Shown here: in pieces, positions 5,427 through 20,060 of the stretch
How positions within the stretch are numbered: position 1 is the stretch's first letter
Layout of the letters: each line of letters starts with the position of its first letter
IMG/VR virus record: IMGVR_UViG_3300032047_000189
Span: 1 to 20,060 of that record
Reading direction: 5' to 3' (one strand)
Length of the DNA: 20,060 nucleotides
Source of the DNA: a virus
The notes under the pieces: generated by a model
Seen by the model: the letters and a program-made list of their open reading frames with translations, nothing else
Databases searched by the model: none
Told to the model about the DNA's origin: nothing
Program-made: the position numbers and the translations under genes

Positions 5427-5975
5427 ATGTGTTTTGCTTTACCTGCTTTAGGTGCTGCAGTTGCTCCTTTGTTTTACGGAGCACTAGGCTTAGGTGCTGT
5501 TACTGAAATAGTAGGAGCAAATAGAGCAAATCAACAAGCAGAAATCTTAGGGGGCCAAGCAGCACAAGAAGGAGCATCTGCTAATTTAGCTTTCGCTAGA
5601 GAACAAGAAGGACTTGGAGCTAGACTTAAAGAAGACAGGAAAGCAAACGCACAAGAACAATTAGCTTTAGCTAAGCAAGGATTACAAGCAAAAGGACAAC
5701 TATTAGCTGCTGAAAGATCAGGATTAACACTTGACTTATTGTTAGGTGATGTAGAAAGACAAGAAGGTGAAGCTAAGAGTTTATTAGAACAAACAATGGA
5801 GTCAGCAACTCAACAGTATAGAAGAAATACTTTAGGTCTAACAGCTAAAAGAGATGATCGACTTAATGCAGCTAAAAGTAAACGTAACCAAGCACAAGGA
5901 ATGACAAGAGGACCATTAGACGTTGCTTTAGGTACACTTAGCAGTGGTCTTTCTAGTTACACTTCCTTGGTTTAA
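5427..5975 (+). CDS. Internal virion protein B (T7 gp14-like)
   Basis: This 182-aa protein compares with 196 aa for T7 gp14. It has the typical plan: a hydrophobic N-terminus (residues 3-30, LPALGAAVAPLFYGALGLG) followed by an Ala/Gln/Glu-rich helical region (31-150). gp14 is ejected into the cell and helps form the outer-membrane part of the DNA channel, which suits the hydrophobic segment. The start ATG directly follows the preceding TAA, and the stop overlaps the next start (TAATG), so expression is coupled along 13-14-15. Confidence 0.88.
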   Translation: MCFALPALGAAVAPLFYGALGLGAVTEIVGANRANQQAEILGGQAAQEGASANLAFAREQEGLGARLKEDRKANAQEQLALAKQGLQAKGQLLAAERSGLTLDLLLGDVERQEGEAKSLLEQTMESATQQYRRNTLGLTAKRDDRLNAAKSKRNQAQGMTRGPLDVALGTLSSGLSSYTSLV

Positions 5976-8083
5976 TGACTAACAGTTTTCAACCACAAGC
6001 ACGACCAGTAGATACATTTGTACAACCTGTTAGTGTTGCACCTCCTACTGACTTAGATGTTTTAGCAAGAGCTTTAAAGACTGTTAATCCTGGTATTGAA
6101 GCTTTCTTAGATAACAGATTAGATGAAGCAGTTGAAGATGAAAAAGCAAAAGGAATGGAATTAGCAATAGAAGATTCGGCTAAAGAATTTAAAGGTATTA
6201 CTAAATCAATAAGAAAGAAAGATGGTGATGATGCTGCTAGACAATTAATAGGTGGAAGTATTTTTGCTGATCGTGCTTATCAAAAAACAAAAGCAAATAT
6301 TTTAGGTAATAATGTTGCAAGTAAATTATCAACTAGCTATTCAACTACAAGAATTAATGATAAACCTTTAACAGCTTATTCTTTTGAATCTCCTGAATTT
6401 CAAGGCTGGTTAGAAGAACAAAAAACTCAAGTTGTTGATCAATTAAATGATATTAATCCTACTTATGTTGCTGAATATTTTTTACCAAAATTAGCTGCTG
6501 GCACAAGTTCAATTACTAATAATCATATTACAAAACATAAGGAATATAAATTTGAACAATTAAAATCATTAACAGCCTATCTTGTTCCTCAAGTAGTCAC
6601 TATTCAAGATCCTTTAACAGCTAAAACTCTTATAGAAGCATTTGATACTAGTATTAATGATTTAGGCATAAGTGGTAAGGATTTAGGAGATATAAACAAA
6701 TCAATAGTTAATGCTCTTGCTGATGAAGCGGAAACTGCTGCTCTTGCAGGAGATGAAGAACGTGTAGTACAGATTTTGGATAAAGCAGGTTTATTTCCTT
6801 ATGGACCAAATAGAAACCTTACATTAAAAAACCATCCAGACTTTAAAGGAAAAGAAAATCAAATAACAAGAAGAGCTTCTCAAGTTGCTTATCAAAATCA
6901 AAAGACTAAAGATCTAGAAGAGAAAAGAGCAAAAGATCAAGATGTAGTAGATAGCTTACAAAAATATGCTCAAGCTTTAGAAAATGGTGACGCTAATGCA
7001 AATCAAATCATCGATGATTTAATGCTTAGGCAACCAGATAAAGCATCAAAATTAGCAACAAATCAAATTGCTTTAGATGGTGACACAAGAGAACGTTATG
7101 CAGAATTACTAAAGAGAACTATAGAGAGTGATTTTGATTCAGAAGGAGATGCAGCAACAGCAGCTTTAAATTGGTTTCAAGATTCAAGAACACCTAAGAC
7201 AGCATCAAATGTAAAACTATTTGGTGACTTAATACGTTATGCAAATCAGGTAGGTAATGGGGAATTTACTGAAGTAAATAAATACATCTCAGAATTTAAT
7301 GGTTTAGTAAATTCAAGATTAAGAGCAGGTAAAAGTACATTTAATATTATGGGTCAAGTGACAGGACAAGGAGCAACAATTGAAGGTAAATATAAAAATT
7401 TATTTTCTGATAGTTTTAGACGTTGGAAATTTAGTAATCCAGATGCTAGTCAAGAAGAAATCTTTGATAAATATACTGAACTAAGAGATAAATATGATCA
7501 GCAGTTAGGAGATGAATTAAAGAATCCATTTGGTTTAGATCAAGATGAAGATGATCAAGAAGATGAATCATTAGAAGGAGTACCTGATGTTTCTCCTTTA
7601 GGTGATCAAAGTTCTAATCCAGTAATAGATACACTCAATCAAGTTGTTAATGCTCTTACTGGTACAGGAACAGCAGCAGCTGGAACATTAGATGGAAGAA
7701 GTGTATTAGAAGAAATTGATATTACTCAACCAATAGTTCAACCAAACTTACAAAGATTAGCAATAGAAGGAGGCTTTACACCTGAACAAGCAAGAATTAT
7801 GGCAGCAATTGCTATGGCTGAATCAGGTGGTGTTGCTAGAGCTTTAAATGATGTAGGTGATGACAACTCATTTGGTTTATGGCAAATCAATATGATTGAT
7901 GTTCCTGACTACAAACTAGGAGAAGAACGCAGAGCTAAATTAAACTTAAAAACAAATGATGAACTTTATAACCCTGCTACAAATGTACGAGCAGCTAAGA
8001 TGATTTTTGATGAACAAGGGTTTGAAGCTTGGGGGGCTTATACCAACGGAGACTACAAAGACTTTTTACCCAACACTAATTAA
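5975..8083 (+). CDS. Internal virion protein C (gp15-like) with C-terminal lysozyme-like domain
   Basis: This 702-aa protein has about the length and position of T7 gp15 (747 aa). Residues 1-515 are mostly helical, as expected for the periplasmic channel component. An acidic linker (about 520-536, DQDEDDQEDE) leads to a C-terminal domain (about 590-697) with lysozyme-superfamily/SLT features. These are IAMAESGG with the candidate catalytic Glu616, then FGLWQIN (633-639), then an NPATNVRAAKMIFDEQGFEAW stretch ending in the W/Y pair expected of transglycosylases. This part would cut peptidoglycan during DNA ejection. In T7 that domain is at the N-terminus of gp16, and the gp16-like protein here lacks it. 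The stop is followed by the start of the next gene after TC. Confidence 0.88.
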   Translation: MTNSFQPQARPVDTFVQPVSVAPPTDLDVLARALKTVNPGIEAFLDNRLDEAVEDEKAKGMELAIEDSAKEFKGITKSIRKKDGDDAARQLIGGSIFADRAYQKTKANILGNNVASKLSTSYSTTRINDKPLTAYSFESPEFQGWLEEQKTQVVDQLNDINPTYVAEYFLPKLAAGTSSITNNHITKHKEYKFEQLKSLTAYLVPQVVTIQDPLTAKTLIEAFDTSINDLGISGKDLGDINKSIVNALADEAETAALAGDEERVVQILDKAGLFPYGPNRNLTLKNHPDFKGKENQITRRASQVAYQNQKTKDLEEKRAKDQDVVDSLQKYAQALENGDANANQIIDDLMLRQPDKASKLATNQIALDGDTRERYAELLKRTIESDFDSEGDAATAALNWFQDSRTPKTASNVKLFGDLIRYANQVGNGEFTEVNKYISEFNGLVNSRLRAGKSTFNIMGQVTGQGATIEGKYKNLFSDSFRRWKFSNPDASQEEIFDKYTELRDKYDQQLGDELKNPFGLDQDEDDQEDESLEGVPDVSPLGDQSSNPVIDTLNQVVNALTGTGTAAAGTLDGRSVLEEIDITQPIVQPNLQRLAIEGGFTPEQARIMAAIAMAESGGVARALNDVGDDNSFGLWQINMIDVPDYKLGEERRAKLNLKTNDELYNPATNVRAAKMIFDEQGFEAWGAYTNGDYKDFLPNTN
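7748..8080 (+). other. Lysozyme-like (SLT/transglycosylase) domain region inside the gp15-like gene
   Basis: Codons for about residues 592-701 of the gp15-like protein. The visible order is helix, MAES-GG (Glu616 as likely general acid), GLWQIN and NPATN...AA..I, which is the order seen in SLT-type lysozyme-fold domains. It is marked separately because its place in the virion protein set differs from T7. Confidence 0.8.
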
Positions 8084-16776: not shown

Positions 16777-16974
16777 ATGAACACACCTCAAGAAGAACTA
16801 AACGAATGTCAATCTAGATTTGATTCAAACCTTGCTAAAGCTCAACAACTAGAACAGCAAATAACACAACTTCAATCAGAACTTAAAAAACTACAACAGC
16901 CTCTTATAGAAGATCAAGGAGCTATAAAAGCGCTTAAAAAATGTGTTGAAACTACTGTTGAGCAAATAGCTTAA
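16777..16974 (+). CDS. Small coiled-coil protein, function unknown
   Basis: This 65-aa protein is rich in Gln, Glu, Lys and Leu. Residues 15-45 (AKAQQLEQQITQLQSELKKL and onward) show a leucine/isoleucine heptad pattern typical of a coiled coil. There are two cysteines, one in NECQS near the N-terminus and one in LKKCVE near the C-terminus. There is no signal peptide or membrane segment. The upstream 33 nt are A/T-rich without a clear Shine-Dalgarno sequence. It lies between two probable virion genes, so a small virion or chaperone role is possible, but no function can be assigned. Confidence 0.7.
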   Translation: MNTPQEELNECQSRFDSNLAKAQQLEQQITQLQSELKKLQQPLIEDQGAIKALKKCVETTVEQIA

Positions 16975-16975
16975 C

Positions 16976-17001
16976 TTTAAACTAAACTCATAATTAAAAG
17001 G
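16976..17001 (+). promoter_or_regulatory. Leader repeat with ribosome binding site, copy 1
   Basis: TTTAAACTAAACT followed 3 nt later by AATTAAAAGG. It matches 17362-17387 at 23 of 26 positions. The AAAAGG end is a good Shine-Dalgarno site 8 nt before ATG 17010. The conserved TTTAAACTAAACT half is more than a ribosome binding site needs, so it may also be a promoter or processing element, or simply a remnant of gene duplication. Confidence 0.65.
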
Positions 17002-17009
17002 TTTAGATC

Positions 17010-17342
17010 ATGTCTTTAACTTGGATTGTTCATTGTGTTGATAAGGTAAACACAGAAGGCGACCTTAATGATGTTTGTAAAAAAATTGGATGGGTAGCAA
17101 TGAAAAAGCATCAATCAAACAATCAAAATGCATTTAAAACAGGTGTTACAACTTTAAATAGTGCTAATAGTGATAGCTATACGGCATTTAGTGATTTAAC
17201 AGAAAGTCAATGTATTACATGGGTGAAAAATATTTTAGGAACCTCGGAGGTTACAGCTATTGAGAATGAAATTAGCGCTTCTCTAACTGAGCAAGATAAT
17301 GGAACAGTTACAAGATTAAATAGAAATTTTCCGTGGAAATAG
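17010..17342 (+). CDS. Conserved small phage protein, paralogue 1
   Basis: This 110-aa protein opens with a beta-strand (LTWIVHCVDKV) and contains a YTAFSDLTESQCITWVKNILG motif (residues 56-76). It then has an acidic helix with E-x-x-I and ends in FPWK. The next gene encodes a protein of the same length and plan (S/T-W-x-V at the start, YDSLNESTVLGWVKTKL in the middle, final PW), so the two are tandem paralogues. From memory, this family (possibly what is now called DUF7936) is widespread near tail-fibre genes in marine cyanophages and is of unknown function. A virion role is plausible from context only. It is preceded by the shared leader repeat. Confidence 0.82.
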   Translation: MSLTWIVHCVDKVNTEGDLNDVCKKIGWVAMKKHQSNNQNAFKTGVTTLNSANSDSYTAFSDLTESQCITWVKNILGTSEVTAIENEISASLTEQDNGTVTRLNRNFPWK

Positions 17343-17361
17343 AAAAAACAACATTTATTTG

Positions 17362-17387
17362 TTTAAACTAAACTACAAATTAAAAGG
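17362..17387 (+). promoter_or_regulatory. Leader repeat with ribosome binding site, copy 2
   Basis: TTTAAACTAAACT plus AATTAAAAGG, near-identical to 16976-17001. AAAAGGA is 7 nt before ATG 17396. Confidence 0.65.
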
Positions 17388-17395
17388 ACAAACCT

Positions 17396-17725
17396 ATGGC
17401 TATTACTTCTACATGGGAAGTGAACACACTTGAAAGATCTTTATCAGATGGCTTTGTTAATAAAGTGATCTATAGGGTAAAAGGGCTTGATGATGGAACA
17501 GAAAAAACCAGAGCTACTGGTGAAGTGAATTTTATTAAGCCATCTTCTCTTCCTTCTGATTTCGTTGCTTATGACAGCCTTAATGAATCAACAGTATTAG
17601 GTTGGGTAAAAACTAAATTAGATGCTGATAATCCTGGTACTGTTGCTGGTGTTGAAACAAATTTAACAACTGAAATAGGAGTTATTAATACACCAGTTAC
17701 AGGAACAGGTAAGCCTTGGTCTTAG
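17396..17725 (+). CDS. Conserved small phage protein, paralogue 2
   Basis: This 109-aa protein is a paralogue of the preceding gene. It begins with a STWEVNTLERSLSDG strand pair, has the shared Y-x-x-L-x-E-S-x-x-x-x-W-V-K motif (residues 58-71) and an acidic VAGVETNLTTEIG helix, and ends in GKPWS. Overall identity between the two is low outside these motifs, so the duplication is old or the copies came separately, although their leaders stay close. No enzymatic residues are apparent. It is the last gene before an intrinsic terminator and so closes the main structural block. Confidence 0.82.
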   Translation: MAITSTWEVNTLERSLSDGFVNKVIYRVKGLDDGTEKTRATGEVNFIKPSSLPSDFVAYDSLNESTVLGWVKTKLDADNPGTVAGVETNLTTEIGVINTPVTGTGKPWS

Positions 17726-17762
17726 TTAATAGGCTTCATAATGTGGCTTATTAAACTTTTTT
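17726..17762 (+). terminator. Intrinsic terminator at the end of the structural block
   Basis: TAATAGGC (17727-17734) pairs with GGCTTATTA (17745-17753) as an 8-bp stem with one G-T wobble. The loop is about 10 nt, and TTTTTT follows at 17757-17762. It begins directly after the stop of the second paralogue and separates it from the right-end cassette. Confidence 0.7.
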
Positions 17763-17768
17763 GAATAT

Positions 17769-17776
17769 TATAAATA
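17769..17776 (+). promoter_or_regulatory. TATAAATA, T4-late-like promoter motif (or -10-like element)
   Basis: TATAAATA is the T4 late promoter core, also described as NATAAATA in T4-like cyanophages. It lies 7 nt after the terminator T-run and 17 nt before the first gene of the right-end cassette. In AT-rich DNA this octamer also appears by chance (for example inside the gp16-like gene near 11589), so the call rests on position. It could equally serve as a sigma70-type -10. Confidence 0.45.
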
Positions 17777-17793
17777 CAGCCCAGTAATTTTTT

Positions 17794-17991
17794 ATGGTTA
17801 AAATCCTAACCTATGTCAATACTGCTGTTCTTTTAATAGCAGTTGGTGGAGGAAGTTTTGTTTACATGAAAAGAGCTGAATTTGTAAATGACATGATCTT
17901 TACAGTACAAGATCAATTGATTAAAAACATTCAAAGTCAAATACAAATTCCTTCTATTCCTAATACAACAGGACCAGTTTTTAACAGATGA
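17794..17991 (+). CDS. Small single-span membrane protein, function unknown
   Basis: This 65-aa protein has one N-terminal transmembrane segment (about residues 5-24, LTYVNTAVLLIAVGGGSFVY), followed by KR and an amphipathic helix (VNDMIFTVQDQLIKNIQSQI, 31-50) and a Pro-rich tail (IPSIPNTTGP). The stop overlaps the next start (ATGA, 4 nt), so the two are coupled. From memory it resembles the first gene of a conserved cyanomyovirus gene group. Size and topology also allow a holin- or spanin-like role, which cannot be decided here. No Shine-Dalgarno site is visible, and the leader is T-rich. Confidence 0.75.
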   Translation: MVKILTYVNTAVLLIAVGGGSFVYMKRAEFVNDMIFTVQDQLIKNIQSQIQIPSIPNTTGPVFNR

Positions 17992-18542
17992 TCCAATTTA
18001 AATCATTTAATGGCCTAACTTCTCTTGTGTTAGGTGGAGGTTTGATTGCCTCTAATTTTATGGCTTTAAGTATGCTATCTCAGAAAAATGGCATACCTAA
18101 TATTGCTAACCTTCCAAATACTCCTTATTCCAGCTTCTCTATTAGAAGTAATAAAACTGCTGATGGTGCAGAAGAATGGACAATGGCTCAAAGACAACAT
18201 GATCCAAAAACAATGCTGTCTTATGAAGATTCAGAACAACCTACTTTTAATGGCAAGGTAAAGAAAAAGTATGTGCATAAAGAATCTGTAGCTCAGTTTG
18301 CTGTTTACCCTCAAGGCTCAGATGGAAAATTAACAGCAAAACAAATTGAATGTATAGAGAAACAAGCTCAAGGTAGAAGTAATGGAATGATGATTGCAGA
18401 TGCTGGTTCAGTTCAAGTAACACCAGCTCTTGCAGGGGTTCCTATTGTAGGACCAGTATTAGCAGGAATATTCTTTGGTCAAGCTAGAAAGCAAGTAGGA
18501 AATGCAGCTAGTGATCTTGCTGGTCAATGGAATGACTGCTAA
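17988..18542 (+). CDS. Two-span membrane-associated protein, function unknown
   Basis: This 184-aa protein has an N-terminal hydrophobic segment (about 8-30, LTSLVLGGGLIASNFMALSM). A polar middle region follows with an EEWTMAQRQHDPKTM motif. Then comes KLTAKQIECIEKQAQG (114-129), a Gly/Ala/Pro hydrophobic segment (about 145-164, TPALAGVPIVGPVLAGIFFG) and a C-terminal NDC. Only two cysteines are present (C122 and C184). I recall cyanomyovirus proteins with the same K-L-x-x-x-Q-I-x-C-I motif, glycine-rich hydrophobic segment and terminal SDC/NDC. Function is unknown. It overlaps the upstream gene by 4 nt and its stop is directly followed by the next ATG (TAAATG). Confidence 0.78.
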   Translation: MIQFKSFNGLTSLVLGGGLIASNFMALSMLSQKNGIPNIANLPNTPYSSFSIRSNKTADGAEEWTMAQRQHDPKTMLSYEDSEQPTFNGKVKKKYVHKESVAQFAVYPQGSDGKLTAKQIECIEKQAQGRSNGMMIADAGSVQVTPALAGVPIVGPVLAGIFFGQARKQVGNAASDLAGQWNDC

Positions 18543-19358
18543 ATGGAAATAGAAGATATTTCTGTTAGGGAGATACCTGAAGCTTCGATAGATACAACAA
18601 TAATTGCTACACCTAAAGCTGTATTACCTAACAACATAGGCTTTCCAGTTATTCAAATGCCTGGCTGTGTAAGGGCTAGGACGTTAAAAAATAAGAATTT
18701 AGTAACGTCGGACCCTAAAGGAAATTTTTATGTCTGCGACGGGAACGTACCAACACTTGAAAGCATGGCTGTTGATTGGGACGGGCTATCTGCTGTTGGA
18801 CCTGTAAAAGAAGAAACAGAAATAGTTGCTCCTATTCCAAAGTTAAAAGGGAACGAGAGAAAGAAAGTGAAAGAAAAGGATGGCAAAGATAACGAGAAGG
18901 GAGATACCGATATAGGGCAACAAGATTTTAAGATTCCAGATGTTGATGGAGAGTTTATTGCAGATGTACTTCCTTGTCCTGCCTTAGACACACTTGCTAA
19001 AACTCCTGTTGGTTCGTTAGGTAAAGGCGGCCTTGCAAGAATTAAAGGATGGAAAAGAGATGTGCTTACAGGTAAATGTGAAACAGTATGGGAAGGATTA
19101 AGTCCACTAGAGATTGCAGGGAATTACGCTCCACAGCCTACGGTTCTTGTAAATACATCTGCTATTGCTATTACGTCAGTTGTTGGTGTAACTGTTATTG
19201 GTCAGCCGATAGCAAAGTTTTTCCAAAAACAATTAAAAGGTCAAGTTAAAAGTTTTTCTAAGAAGATAACTAAAAAGTTATTAGCTATTCGGGGGAAGAA
19301 GCCTCCTGTAAAGTCCCTTTCTGAAAGGAAAAAGGAGCAGAGGGATTCTCGGAAATAG
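18543..19358 (+). CDS. Membrane-anchored Cys-containing protein, function unknown
   Basis: This 271-aa protein begins with an N-terminal soluble part containing FPVIQMPGCVRAR (C42) and DPKGNFYVCDG (C65). A highly charged Lys/Glu linker (102-127) follows. The second soluble part contains LPCPAL (C145) and TGKCETVW (C179). One transmembrane segment (about 200-221, TVLVNTSAIAITSVVGVTVIG) precedes a strongly basic amphipathic C-terminus (FFQKQLKGQVKSFSKKITKK, 226-245). Four cysteines before the membrane span and a basic tail after it suggest an N-out, C-in topology; this is inference. The MPGCV and DPKG-xx-xx-CD motifs match, from memory, a cyanomyovirus family of unknown function. The last 74 nt overlap the convergent minus-strand gene. 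Confidence 0.78.
   Translation: MEIEDISVREIPEASIDTTIIATPKAVLPNNIGFPVIQMPGCVRARTLKNKNLVTSDPKGNFYVCDGNVPTLESMAVDWDGLSAVGPVKEETEIVAPIPKLKGNERKKVKEKDGKDNEKGDTDIGQQDFKIPDVDGEFIADVLPCPALDTLAKTPVGSLGKGGLARIKGWKRDVLTGKCETVWEGLSPLEIAGNYAPQPTVLVNTSAIAITSVVGVTVIGQPIAKFFQKQLKGQVKSFSKKITKKLLAIRGKKPPVKSLSERKKEQRDSRK
19285..19358. other. Tail-to-tail overlap of two convergent genes
   Basis: The + strand gene ends at 19358 and the minus-strand gene ends at 19285, so 74 nt code on both strands. The shared DNA encodes the basic Lys/Arg-rich end of the + protein and the Ser/Pro-rich end of the minus protein. No bidirectional terminator is visible; CCTTTCTGAAAGG at 19316-19328 lacks a T-run. Confidence 0.75.
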
Positions 19359-19842
19359 AGTGTTTATGATCTGGCAGTGTATTAGGAGGATTTACTAAAC
19401 GGACATCCTCACAGACAACATAACTAGGACTGTCTTTTGCATAGACAACACCAAGTTTTAACTGCTCTGCACATACTTTTAAACGTCCCAAAGAATAATC
19501 TAACTTCTTAGCTTTATACGCTTGTTCTAAATACTTAATACGGGTATTCATTGCAGCTACGCAGTTATTTGTCATGCGTCGATCTAGTGGTACTGCCACG
19601 GTTGCCGTTATGCCATAGTTAAAACTTAAGTTATTTTTAGCTTGTCCAGTCCGAACGGGTTTGGTGAACAGGATTCCCCCAGGATTAGTTAAGTTTCCAT
19701 CTGCATCTGTACTGTCGTCGTACACATTCTCAAGGTAGGTTGGCTCAAATGGATCTTTCCAAGTATTGACTTTGGAAATAAAAGGATTAATTGTAAGAGT
19801 TGTTCCACTGCAGCGGATTCCATCACCTACTTCTTGAAACAT
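19285..19842 (-). CDS. Probably secreted Cys-containing protein, function unknown (true start upstream)
   Basis: This is the only substantial minus-strand gene. From the first ATG (19842) it gives 185 aa: GDGIRCSG, NPFISKVNTWKDPFEP, a DDSTDADGNLTNPGGILF acidic turn (possible cation binding), and a Cys-flanked helical pair (NNCVAAMNTRIKYLEQAYK through LKVCAEQLKLG). These are followed by VVCEDVRLVNPPNTLPDHKHS. Four cysteines suit an extracytoplasmic protein. The frame stays open upstream to the window edge and reads as a signal peptide (FYCGIGICLYSITFSQPVFA, cleavage before NSTT), followed by SPSATSQGSVINQGIQV. From memory these residues belong to the mature cyanomyovirus homologue, so the ATG given is probably internal. 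No ATG, GTG or TTG exists in frame between it and the edge. Confidence 0.78.
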   Translation of the reverse strand: MFQEVGDGIRCSGTTLTINPFISKVNTWKDPFEPTYLENVYDDSTDADGNLTNPGGILFTKPVRTGQAKNNLSFNYGITATVAVPLDRRMTNNCVAAMNTRIKYLEQAYKAKKLDYSLGRLKVCAEQLKLGVVYAKDSPSYVVCEDVRLVNPPNTLPDHKHSISENPSAPFSFQKGTLQEASSPE

Positions 19843-19989
19843 AAAGCTACCACTTTGAACCTGAATACCTTGGTTAATTACACTGCCTTGTGATGTTGCA
19901 GATGGAGAAGCTATTGTTGTTGAGTTTGCAAAGACTGGTTGACTAAATGTTATTGAGTAAAGACAGATACCGATTCCACAATAGAATCT
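19843..19989 (-). other. 5' coding extension with signal-peptide-like sequence, no canonical start
   Basis: In the frame of the minus-strand gene, codons from 19989 down to 19843 read NRFYCGIGICLYSITFSQPVFA / NSTTIASPSATSQG and onward. An Arg then a hydrophobic core then an A-x-A-like VFA cleavage site are visible. No standard start codon occurs between here and the window end, and the region overlaps the 3' end of another minus-strand frame. Confidence 0.55.
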
Positions 19990-20060
19990 GTTGTAGTGGT
20001 TCGGTTTATTGTTGTTACATTTTGGAGTCCAGGTTGGGCTAGACTTTCTGTAAAGGAAAA
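19950..20060 (-). CDS. 3' end of a second minus-strand gene (runs off the window)
   Basis: Thirty-six residues are visible, from FSFTESLAQPGLQNVTTINR through TTTTDSIVESVSVFTQ to the stop at 19950-19952. The Ser/Thr-rich text resembles the C-termini of signal-peptide-bearing beta-rich proteins that I recall from cyanomyoviruses, which often contain an F-S-F-T/S-E-S motif. It would be transcribed ahead of the 19285-19842 gene. It overlaps the apparent signal-peptide region of that gene in a different frame, so at least one of the two readings needs an unusual start. It is partial and function is unknown. Confidence 0.5.
   Translation of the reverse strand, partial: FSFTESLAQPGLQNVTTINRTTTTDSIVESVSVFTQ

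Follow-up and report, generated by a model that had tools for sequence, protein, structure and literature searches.

Which gene set closes a T7-like structural block in a marine virus, and what could it do for the phage? This question is raised by the 20,060-base virus fragment IMGVR_UViG_3300032047_000189 from IMG/VR (the whole stretch is called the window hereafter), whose structural genes are T7-like and which ends in a cassette of membrane and exported proteins. Three coupled genes on the plus strand (A, B and C) face two genes on the minus strand (D and E), an arrangement described in an earlier sequence-only reading and confirmed by the coordinates of a scan for open reading frames. We find that the window adds a T7-like example to a cassette on record since 2010 from T4-like cyanophages. 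As to function, we tentatively favor, at somewhat less than even odds, a cyanophage-specific module for late breaching of the host envelope (lysis or egress), common to unrelated phage lineages.

A cyanophage cassette and its spread

The cassette proteins were compared by tblastn with 50,697 phage records. Matches, mostly at 25-40% identity, were obtained in 444 records for D, 386 for C and 210 for B, and in none of these records for A. The records matched by B, C and D were cyanophage or marine/uncultured throughout, the named hosts among the matches listed being only Synechococcus or Prochlorococcus. At the level of sequence, the homology of B, C and D is far above chance. In the T4-like phage syn9, the linked homologues gp162-167 correspond to A, B and C on the plus strand and to D, E and F on the minus strand, with gp163 and gp164 followed by gp165 and gp166 on the opposite strand; gene F is known from relatives only, and the window ends inside E. 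The order and orientation of B, C and D in syn9 and Sf-CH8, also T4-like, are the same as in the window, and the layout of Sf-CH8, P-RSM6 and P-TIM68 agrees with that of syn9 apart from local insertions. A complete relative (L015) has a minus operon encoding a DUF6450 membrane protein (G), F, E and then D. Two parts of the cassette hence lie beyond the window: F, an exported paralogue of the likewise exported E, and DUF6450, a membrane protein with two helices.

Profiles of the seven families, run over 169 loci, recovered A, B and C facing D, E, F (and G) with small permutations. Of 139 loci, 134 have C convergent with D and at most 1.5 kb away, and an E/F gene precedes D in every one of 136; as the loci were chosen by the presence of D, these counts show linkage and not prevalence. 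Homologues were thus found, and found linked, so that neither a lack of homologues in T4-like cyanophages nor a scatter of unlinked genes speaks against the sequence-only reading. Its proposals of homology to T4-like cyanophage genes (syn9, Sf-CH8 and the tblastn matches), of a linked group and of a set crossing phage families all stand, and the motifs it had quoted are present: MPGCV and DPKG...VCD in C, KLTAKQIECI and a C-terminal NDC in B, GDGIRCSG and PPNTLPDHKH in D.

In T4-like phages, five genes for hypothetical proteins have been described as "clustered for functional reasons" (Sullivan 2010; PMC3037559); the cluster comprises T4-GCs 218, 219, 234, 235 and 237, with a "plasmid stability" gene. 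Homologues of A, B, C, D and E/F occur there in the same order and convergent, matched as a cluster and not by GC number, and S-PM2 lacks the set, as published (PMC3037559). The window differs in that its set lies in a T7-like genome and that close relatives carry DUF6450 in the minus operon; neither a function nor membership of T7-like phages or siphoviruses is given in the 2010 paper (PMC3037559).

Beyond T4-like phages, D was found in numerous cultured T7-like cyanophages, among them P-SSP7, P-GSP1, NATL2A-133, NATL1A-7, 9515-10a, P-SSP2, P-SSP3, P-SSP10, SS120-1, S-TIP37, S-RIP1, S-RIP2, KBS-P-1A, S-SBP1 and the P-SCSP phages. In the T7-like cyanophages examined, C-DUF6450-E-D directly precedes TerS, and in P-SSP7, NATL2A-133 and KBS-P-1A it sits between tail fibre and TerS. 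The earlier statement that none of the genes belongs to the T7 late set consequently holds for coliphage T7 but not for the many T7-like cyanophages which carry C, DUF6450, E and D. The sets of NATL2A-133 and 9515-10a (genes labelled gp165) and of P-SSP7 (PSSP7_042-045) share these four genes and their order but lie on one strand, lack A, B and F, and have a shorter C. The siphovirus P-HS2 carries DUF6450-F-E-D facing C and A; in S-TIM5, a myovirus outside the T4-like group, C faces D, E and F, and DUF6450 is located elsewhere. Among 19 cyanophages spanning T4-like, T7-like, S-TIM5 and P-HS2, D and DUF6450 were both present in 13 and both absent from 6. The core of the cassette is C, DUF6450, E and D, with A, B and F as accessories.

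It was suggested in 2010 that the "plasmid stability" gene moves the cassette, which would be kept as mobile cargo. While the position varies among T4-like phages and four lineages carry the set, this explanation is the least probable of those considered, and very improbable. The "plasmid stability" protein is a membrane protein of 65-87 amino acids (aa) devoid of a mobility domain, its gene is absent from minimal T7-like sets, and the cassette is under strong purifying selection (ratio of nonsynonymous to synonymous polymorphism, pN/pS, 0.09), which together with near-universal retention speaks for a function. Gene A, whose position is kept in relatives (same slot in L015, L049 and L068), gives a weak profile match to phrog_568, the "plasmid stability" family (E 0.0026), and its sequence does not support this label.

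The confinement of the cassette to cyanophages and the conserved cysteines of D would suit a host-physiology module, whose exported proteins would sustain photosynthesis or nutrient uptake from the thylakoid lumen or periplasm; Sec-exported proteins of cyanobacteria can reach the thylakoid lumen. However, a genome scan returned no host homologue (phage-like or contaminating contigs only), unlike typical auxiliary metabolic genes, and the same core architecture is found in phages with very different metabolic gene sets, making this role improbable. A host origin was rejected on the same scan of bacterial genomes, which gave phage-like contigs only, several in misassigned bins. Bins assigned to Bacteroidetes, Gammaproteobacteria and an archaeon, as well as a Nonlabens xiamenensis isolate assembly (188-kb contig), contain cyanophage-like contigs (L088-L093), probably as contamination.

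A candidate role in late envelope breaching

Hydrophobic membrane segments are found in A, B, C and DUF6450, the last showing two hydrophobic helices by hydropathy, and N-terminal export signals in D, E and F. The holin gene of coliphage T7 lies in the slot between tail fibre and terminase, and this is the slot which the cassette occupies in T7-like cyanophages; in P60, which lacks the cassette, an endolysin (phrog_181, E 2.8e-31) is found in the cassette's own slot. Of 54 loci of T4-like layout, 20 carry CTAAATA ahead of the minus operon, mostly 30-39 nucleotides (nt) before its start; the motif is found in 1.6% of random windows. The cyanophage late promoter has been reported as NATAAATA (PMC2984593), and by this motif the minus (D) operon in T4-like cyanophages is preceded by a late promoter of the T4 type.

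Stand-alone GH24, DPBB/RlpA or phrog_181 proteins were found in 4 of 6 cassette-less named cyanophages (S-PM2, S-CBS2, S-CBP3 and P60) versus 0 of 13 cassette-bearing ones (p 0.004, phylogeny ignored). The GH24 match of Sf-CH8 sits in a 627-aa frame and is probably a tail lysozyme; P-SS2 has a lysozyme by annotation. M15 and amidase families were found in neither group, and Pfam, PHROGs and NCBIfam revealed no peptidoglycan hydrolase domain in A-G. A strict exclusion between cassette and endolysin was rejected, being broken by four contigs, out of 20 cassette-bearing ones from IMG/VR, that encode GH24 proteins of 200-250 aa and all lie outside the T7-like group of the window; the two are therefore not mutually exclusive, and with these contigs included the contrast has p 0.01, phylogeny again ignored. 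This pattern is consistent with a cassette that provides for the holin and outer-membrane steps and lessens the need for a recognisable endolysin.

Several observations were made around these hydrolases. S-PM2, the one T4-like phage that lacks the set, has genes for GH24, RlpA and a protein which looks like a lipoprotein (lipobox LSSC) side by side (L178 18211-20229, i.e. 116.2-118.2 kb; the lysozyme is annotated 5'-truncated), a candidate conventional lysis cluster. Three of the stand-alone GH24 genes of the cassette-bearing contigs L192-L195 adjoin a conserved 127-aa protein, near an HNH gene, and the T7-like S-CBP3 has an unannotated RlpA/DPBB gene between hli and psbA (L187 6203-6582, 28.2-28.6 kb).

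Collectively, signal peptides, membrane segments, the T7 holin slot, the late promoter and the partial exclusion of endolysins support an envelope-directed role, as the sequence-only reading had proposed. Among the roles it named, superinfection exclusion or envelope modification would alter the host surface or periplasm and block further phage injection. The predicted envelope localisation of the proteins, the conservation of the set across phage families competing for the same hosts, and the lack in cyanomyoviruses of the T4 r genes (superinfection and lysis inhibition) are in its favor. Nevertheless, exclusion genes are usually early, in contrast with the late promoter upstream of the D operon; such genes tend to be sporadic, whereas the cassette is near universal; and neither the holin-slot position nor the endolysin swap in P60 would be predicted. 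This explanation is unlikely, though less so than the others weighed against envelope breaching, and the evidence leans toward lysis or egress.

The T7-like cassettes adjoin tail genes and E is weakly similar in fold to a phage upper-tail protein (Foldseek E 0.0097), which might indicate virion-associated accessory proteins such as decoration, DNA-ejection channel or tail-tip factors. Like host physiology, this proposal has a low probability: Sec-type signal peptides on D, E and F would be unexpected, the T4-like set sits among replication genes near regA and hsp20, and the P-TIM68 record flags other proteins, not those of the cassette, as confirmed by proteomics. Cassette genes are not named in the passages found of the P-SCSP1u and P-SSP7 virion papers.

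Structure prediction gave for D, which has four invariant cysteines, a moderate model of four strands followed by a 43-residue helix (predicted local distance difference test, pLDDT, 69.7; predicted template modelling score, pTM, 0.40), and for E two antiparallel strands of 23-24 residues (pLDDT 80.1, pTM 0.45). Nothing significant emerged from the fold search with D, the rows listed being common arrangements. With E, weak and non-significant rows included lysenin, aerolysin, anthrax PA, FliF and phage tail proteins; the ring or pore matches are recurrent (Foldseek E 0.06 or worse, VIA Z up to 4.2) and no more than hint at a likeness of the E model to ring- or pore-forming proteins. A sequence search of the PDB yielded no credible match for D or E. 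An HxH motif in D was considered as an M23-type zinc site and dismissed, being missing from T7-like D proteins.

If the cassette serves late envelope breaching, DUF6450 might act as a holin-like timer or permeabiliser of the inner membrane, with A, B and C as inner-membrane partners. The exported, beta-rich D and E/F would assemble as rings or ribbons in the periplasm or outer membrane and would disrupt or bridge the latter in place of spanins, peptidoglycan being cut by an unrecognised enzyme or, where present, by GH24. The stronger claim, that at least four unrelated marine cyanophage lineages share an unrecognised lysis pathway opening the outer membrane without spanins, is rather doubtful; it would combine a holin-like DUF6450, the A/B/C partners and a secreted beta-ribbon ring or bridge of D/E/F, in many phages without any recognisable endolysin. 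In a published survey, no spanin could be identified for 20 Prochlorococcus and Synechococcus phages, and outer-membrane proteins or proteins with a C-terminal anchor were proposed there as possible substitutes (PMC6139136), a description which D/E and C would fit.

Other results weigh against an envelope-breaching role. The D and E models are moderate or weak, with no significant fold match, and no holin, spanin or hydrolase family was matched by the cassette genes. A, E and F have no cysteine, hence no lipobox, and none of the cysteines of B, C and D is at a signal cleavage site. Syn5 lacks the cassette as well as any hydrolase found in the scans, the four GH24-bearing contigs carry both, and the cassette-less S-PM2, P60 and Syn5 are likewise on the spanin-less list. 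Functional data for the cassette genes were not found.

A large share of ocean carbon is moved by phage lysis of Prochlorococcus and Synechococcus. The cassette, a near-universal, cyanophage-only set of four unrelated lineages, is a concrete candidate for how cyanophages breach the host envelope; the phages that lack it are for the most part carriers of ordinary endolysins. Genetic engineering has been published for T7-like marine cyanophages (PMC8776855).

Window genes and the D/E overlap

The features at the end of the window are collected in the table.

Cassette features of the window (positions in the 20,060-base stretch)
Feature	Position	Strand	Description
Possible weak terminator	17726..17768	+	hairpin then T6, between tail block and gene A
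Gene A	17794..17991	+	65 aa; one N-terminal membrane segment, short hydrophilic tail (hydropathy)
Gene B	17988..18542	+	184 aa; phrog_605; syn9 gp163 family
Gene C	18543..19358	+	271 aa; phrog_570; syn9 gp164 family; Cys motifs
Gene D	19285..20060	-	phrog_848; syn9 gp165 family; exported protein; 5' end past window
Gene E	19950..20060	-	3' end only, last 36 codons (...IVESVSVFTQ*); phrog_650/DUF6322

Neighbours among A, B and C overlap by 4 nt or abut, and the 3' ends of the convergent genes C and D share 74 nt. B has an N-terminal membrane segment, a further Gly/Ala-rich hydrophobic stretch (144-162), Cys122 and the C-terminal Cys184; C has a hydrophobic segment (201-219) followed by a strongly basic C-terminus (+9 over the last 30 residues). 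The E family is exported and Thr/Ser-rich, a full-length relative being L015:7447-7893. The terminator proposed ahead of gene A is partly upheld: a hairpin with a T-run is present, but it is weak (-9.7 kcal/mol, z -1.97) and missing from the consensus terminator scan.

The stop codons of D and E are at 19285-19287 and 19950-19952, and D overlaps E in another frame which stays open up to the window end. One correction concerns the start of D: D begins within E, past the window end, at a start taken from relatives. Relative to E, D occupies the -1 frame in 165 of 168 loci. In 40 dissimilar representatives, the terminal 60 codons of E contain 18 D-frame stops versus ~132 expected from synonymous resampling; farther from the E end than codon -60 the numbers agree with expectation, and no depletion is seen in the +1 frame. 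Most representatives have ATG or GTG at -54 to -63, with fallback starts at -45 and -36, and an A precedes the conserved Trp codon in 30 of 35 versus 14.8 expected (p 1e-7). Synonymous variation of E is lowered in the overlap (0.34 versus 0.49), where no amino-acid conservation was seen in the D frame. Owing to the stop depletion and the start-codon pattern, D most likely starts inside E; its leader would most likely be basic, loosely constrained and ~55 residues long, ahead of a signal-peptide core which coincides with the end of gene E.

A programmed -1 frameshift producing an E-D fusion was rejected, as the D frame is kept open over 60 codons, a length not called for by a shift close to the end of E, no slippery heptamer was seen at the E end, and the ATG pattern (p 1e-7) fits initiation. 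The 382-aa annotated frame of P-RSM6 is likewise no D/E gene fusion but a longer overlap, with E in the other frame. T7-like D starts are mostly annotated too late, and the overlapping frames imply correction of many gene annotations. Late D starts which drop the signal peptide were noted in P-SSP7 (L170 7034), NATL2A-133 (L171 7163), S-TIP37 (L172 6154) and S-TIM5 (L189 8648-9223); in S-TIP37 the DUF6450 gene is unannotated.

Upstream of the cassette, a coiled-coil gene and 110-aa genes (16777-17725) adjoin it, with the same order in P-HS2 (L169 9366-10239), and given these counterparts the shared block may reach further upstream than gene A. A 702-aa internal virion protein (5975-8083) has a C-terminal region resembling, by eye, a lytic transglycosylase domain. 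Near the terminase, T7-like cyanophages with or without the cassette encode a small protein with an N-terminal membrane helix and a coiled coil (L015 6089-6268, L175 6393-6653, L188 6062-6325; phrog_12220 in Syn5 gp47 and P60 gp38).

Comparison with known lysis systems

The cross-lineage spread, the DUF6450 link, the D-in-E overlap and the late-promoter and endolysin patterns are undescribed in the literature searched, whose coverage is incomplete. Two known systems offer a comparison. With Rz/Rz1 two-component spanins, the cassette shares the pairing of inner-membrane and exported partners, an expected action at the outer membrane and a partner gene starting inside another in a different frame, a likeness of architecture and not of homology. 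It differs by its lack of a lipobox protein and of sequence similarity, its larger proteins, its -1 frame and its greater number of components. The second system is T7 gene 17.5 and the class II holins. DUF6450 has no detectable homology to any holin family, but it resembles them in being small, in lying between tail fibre and terminase, and in having two hydrophobic helices, within the range of a small protein with one to four membrane helices expected of holins.

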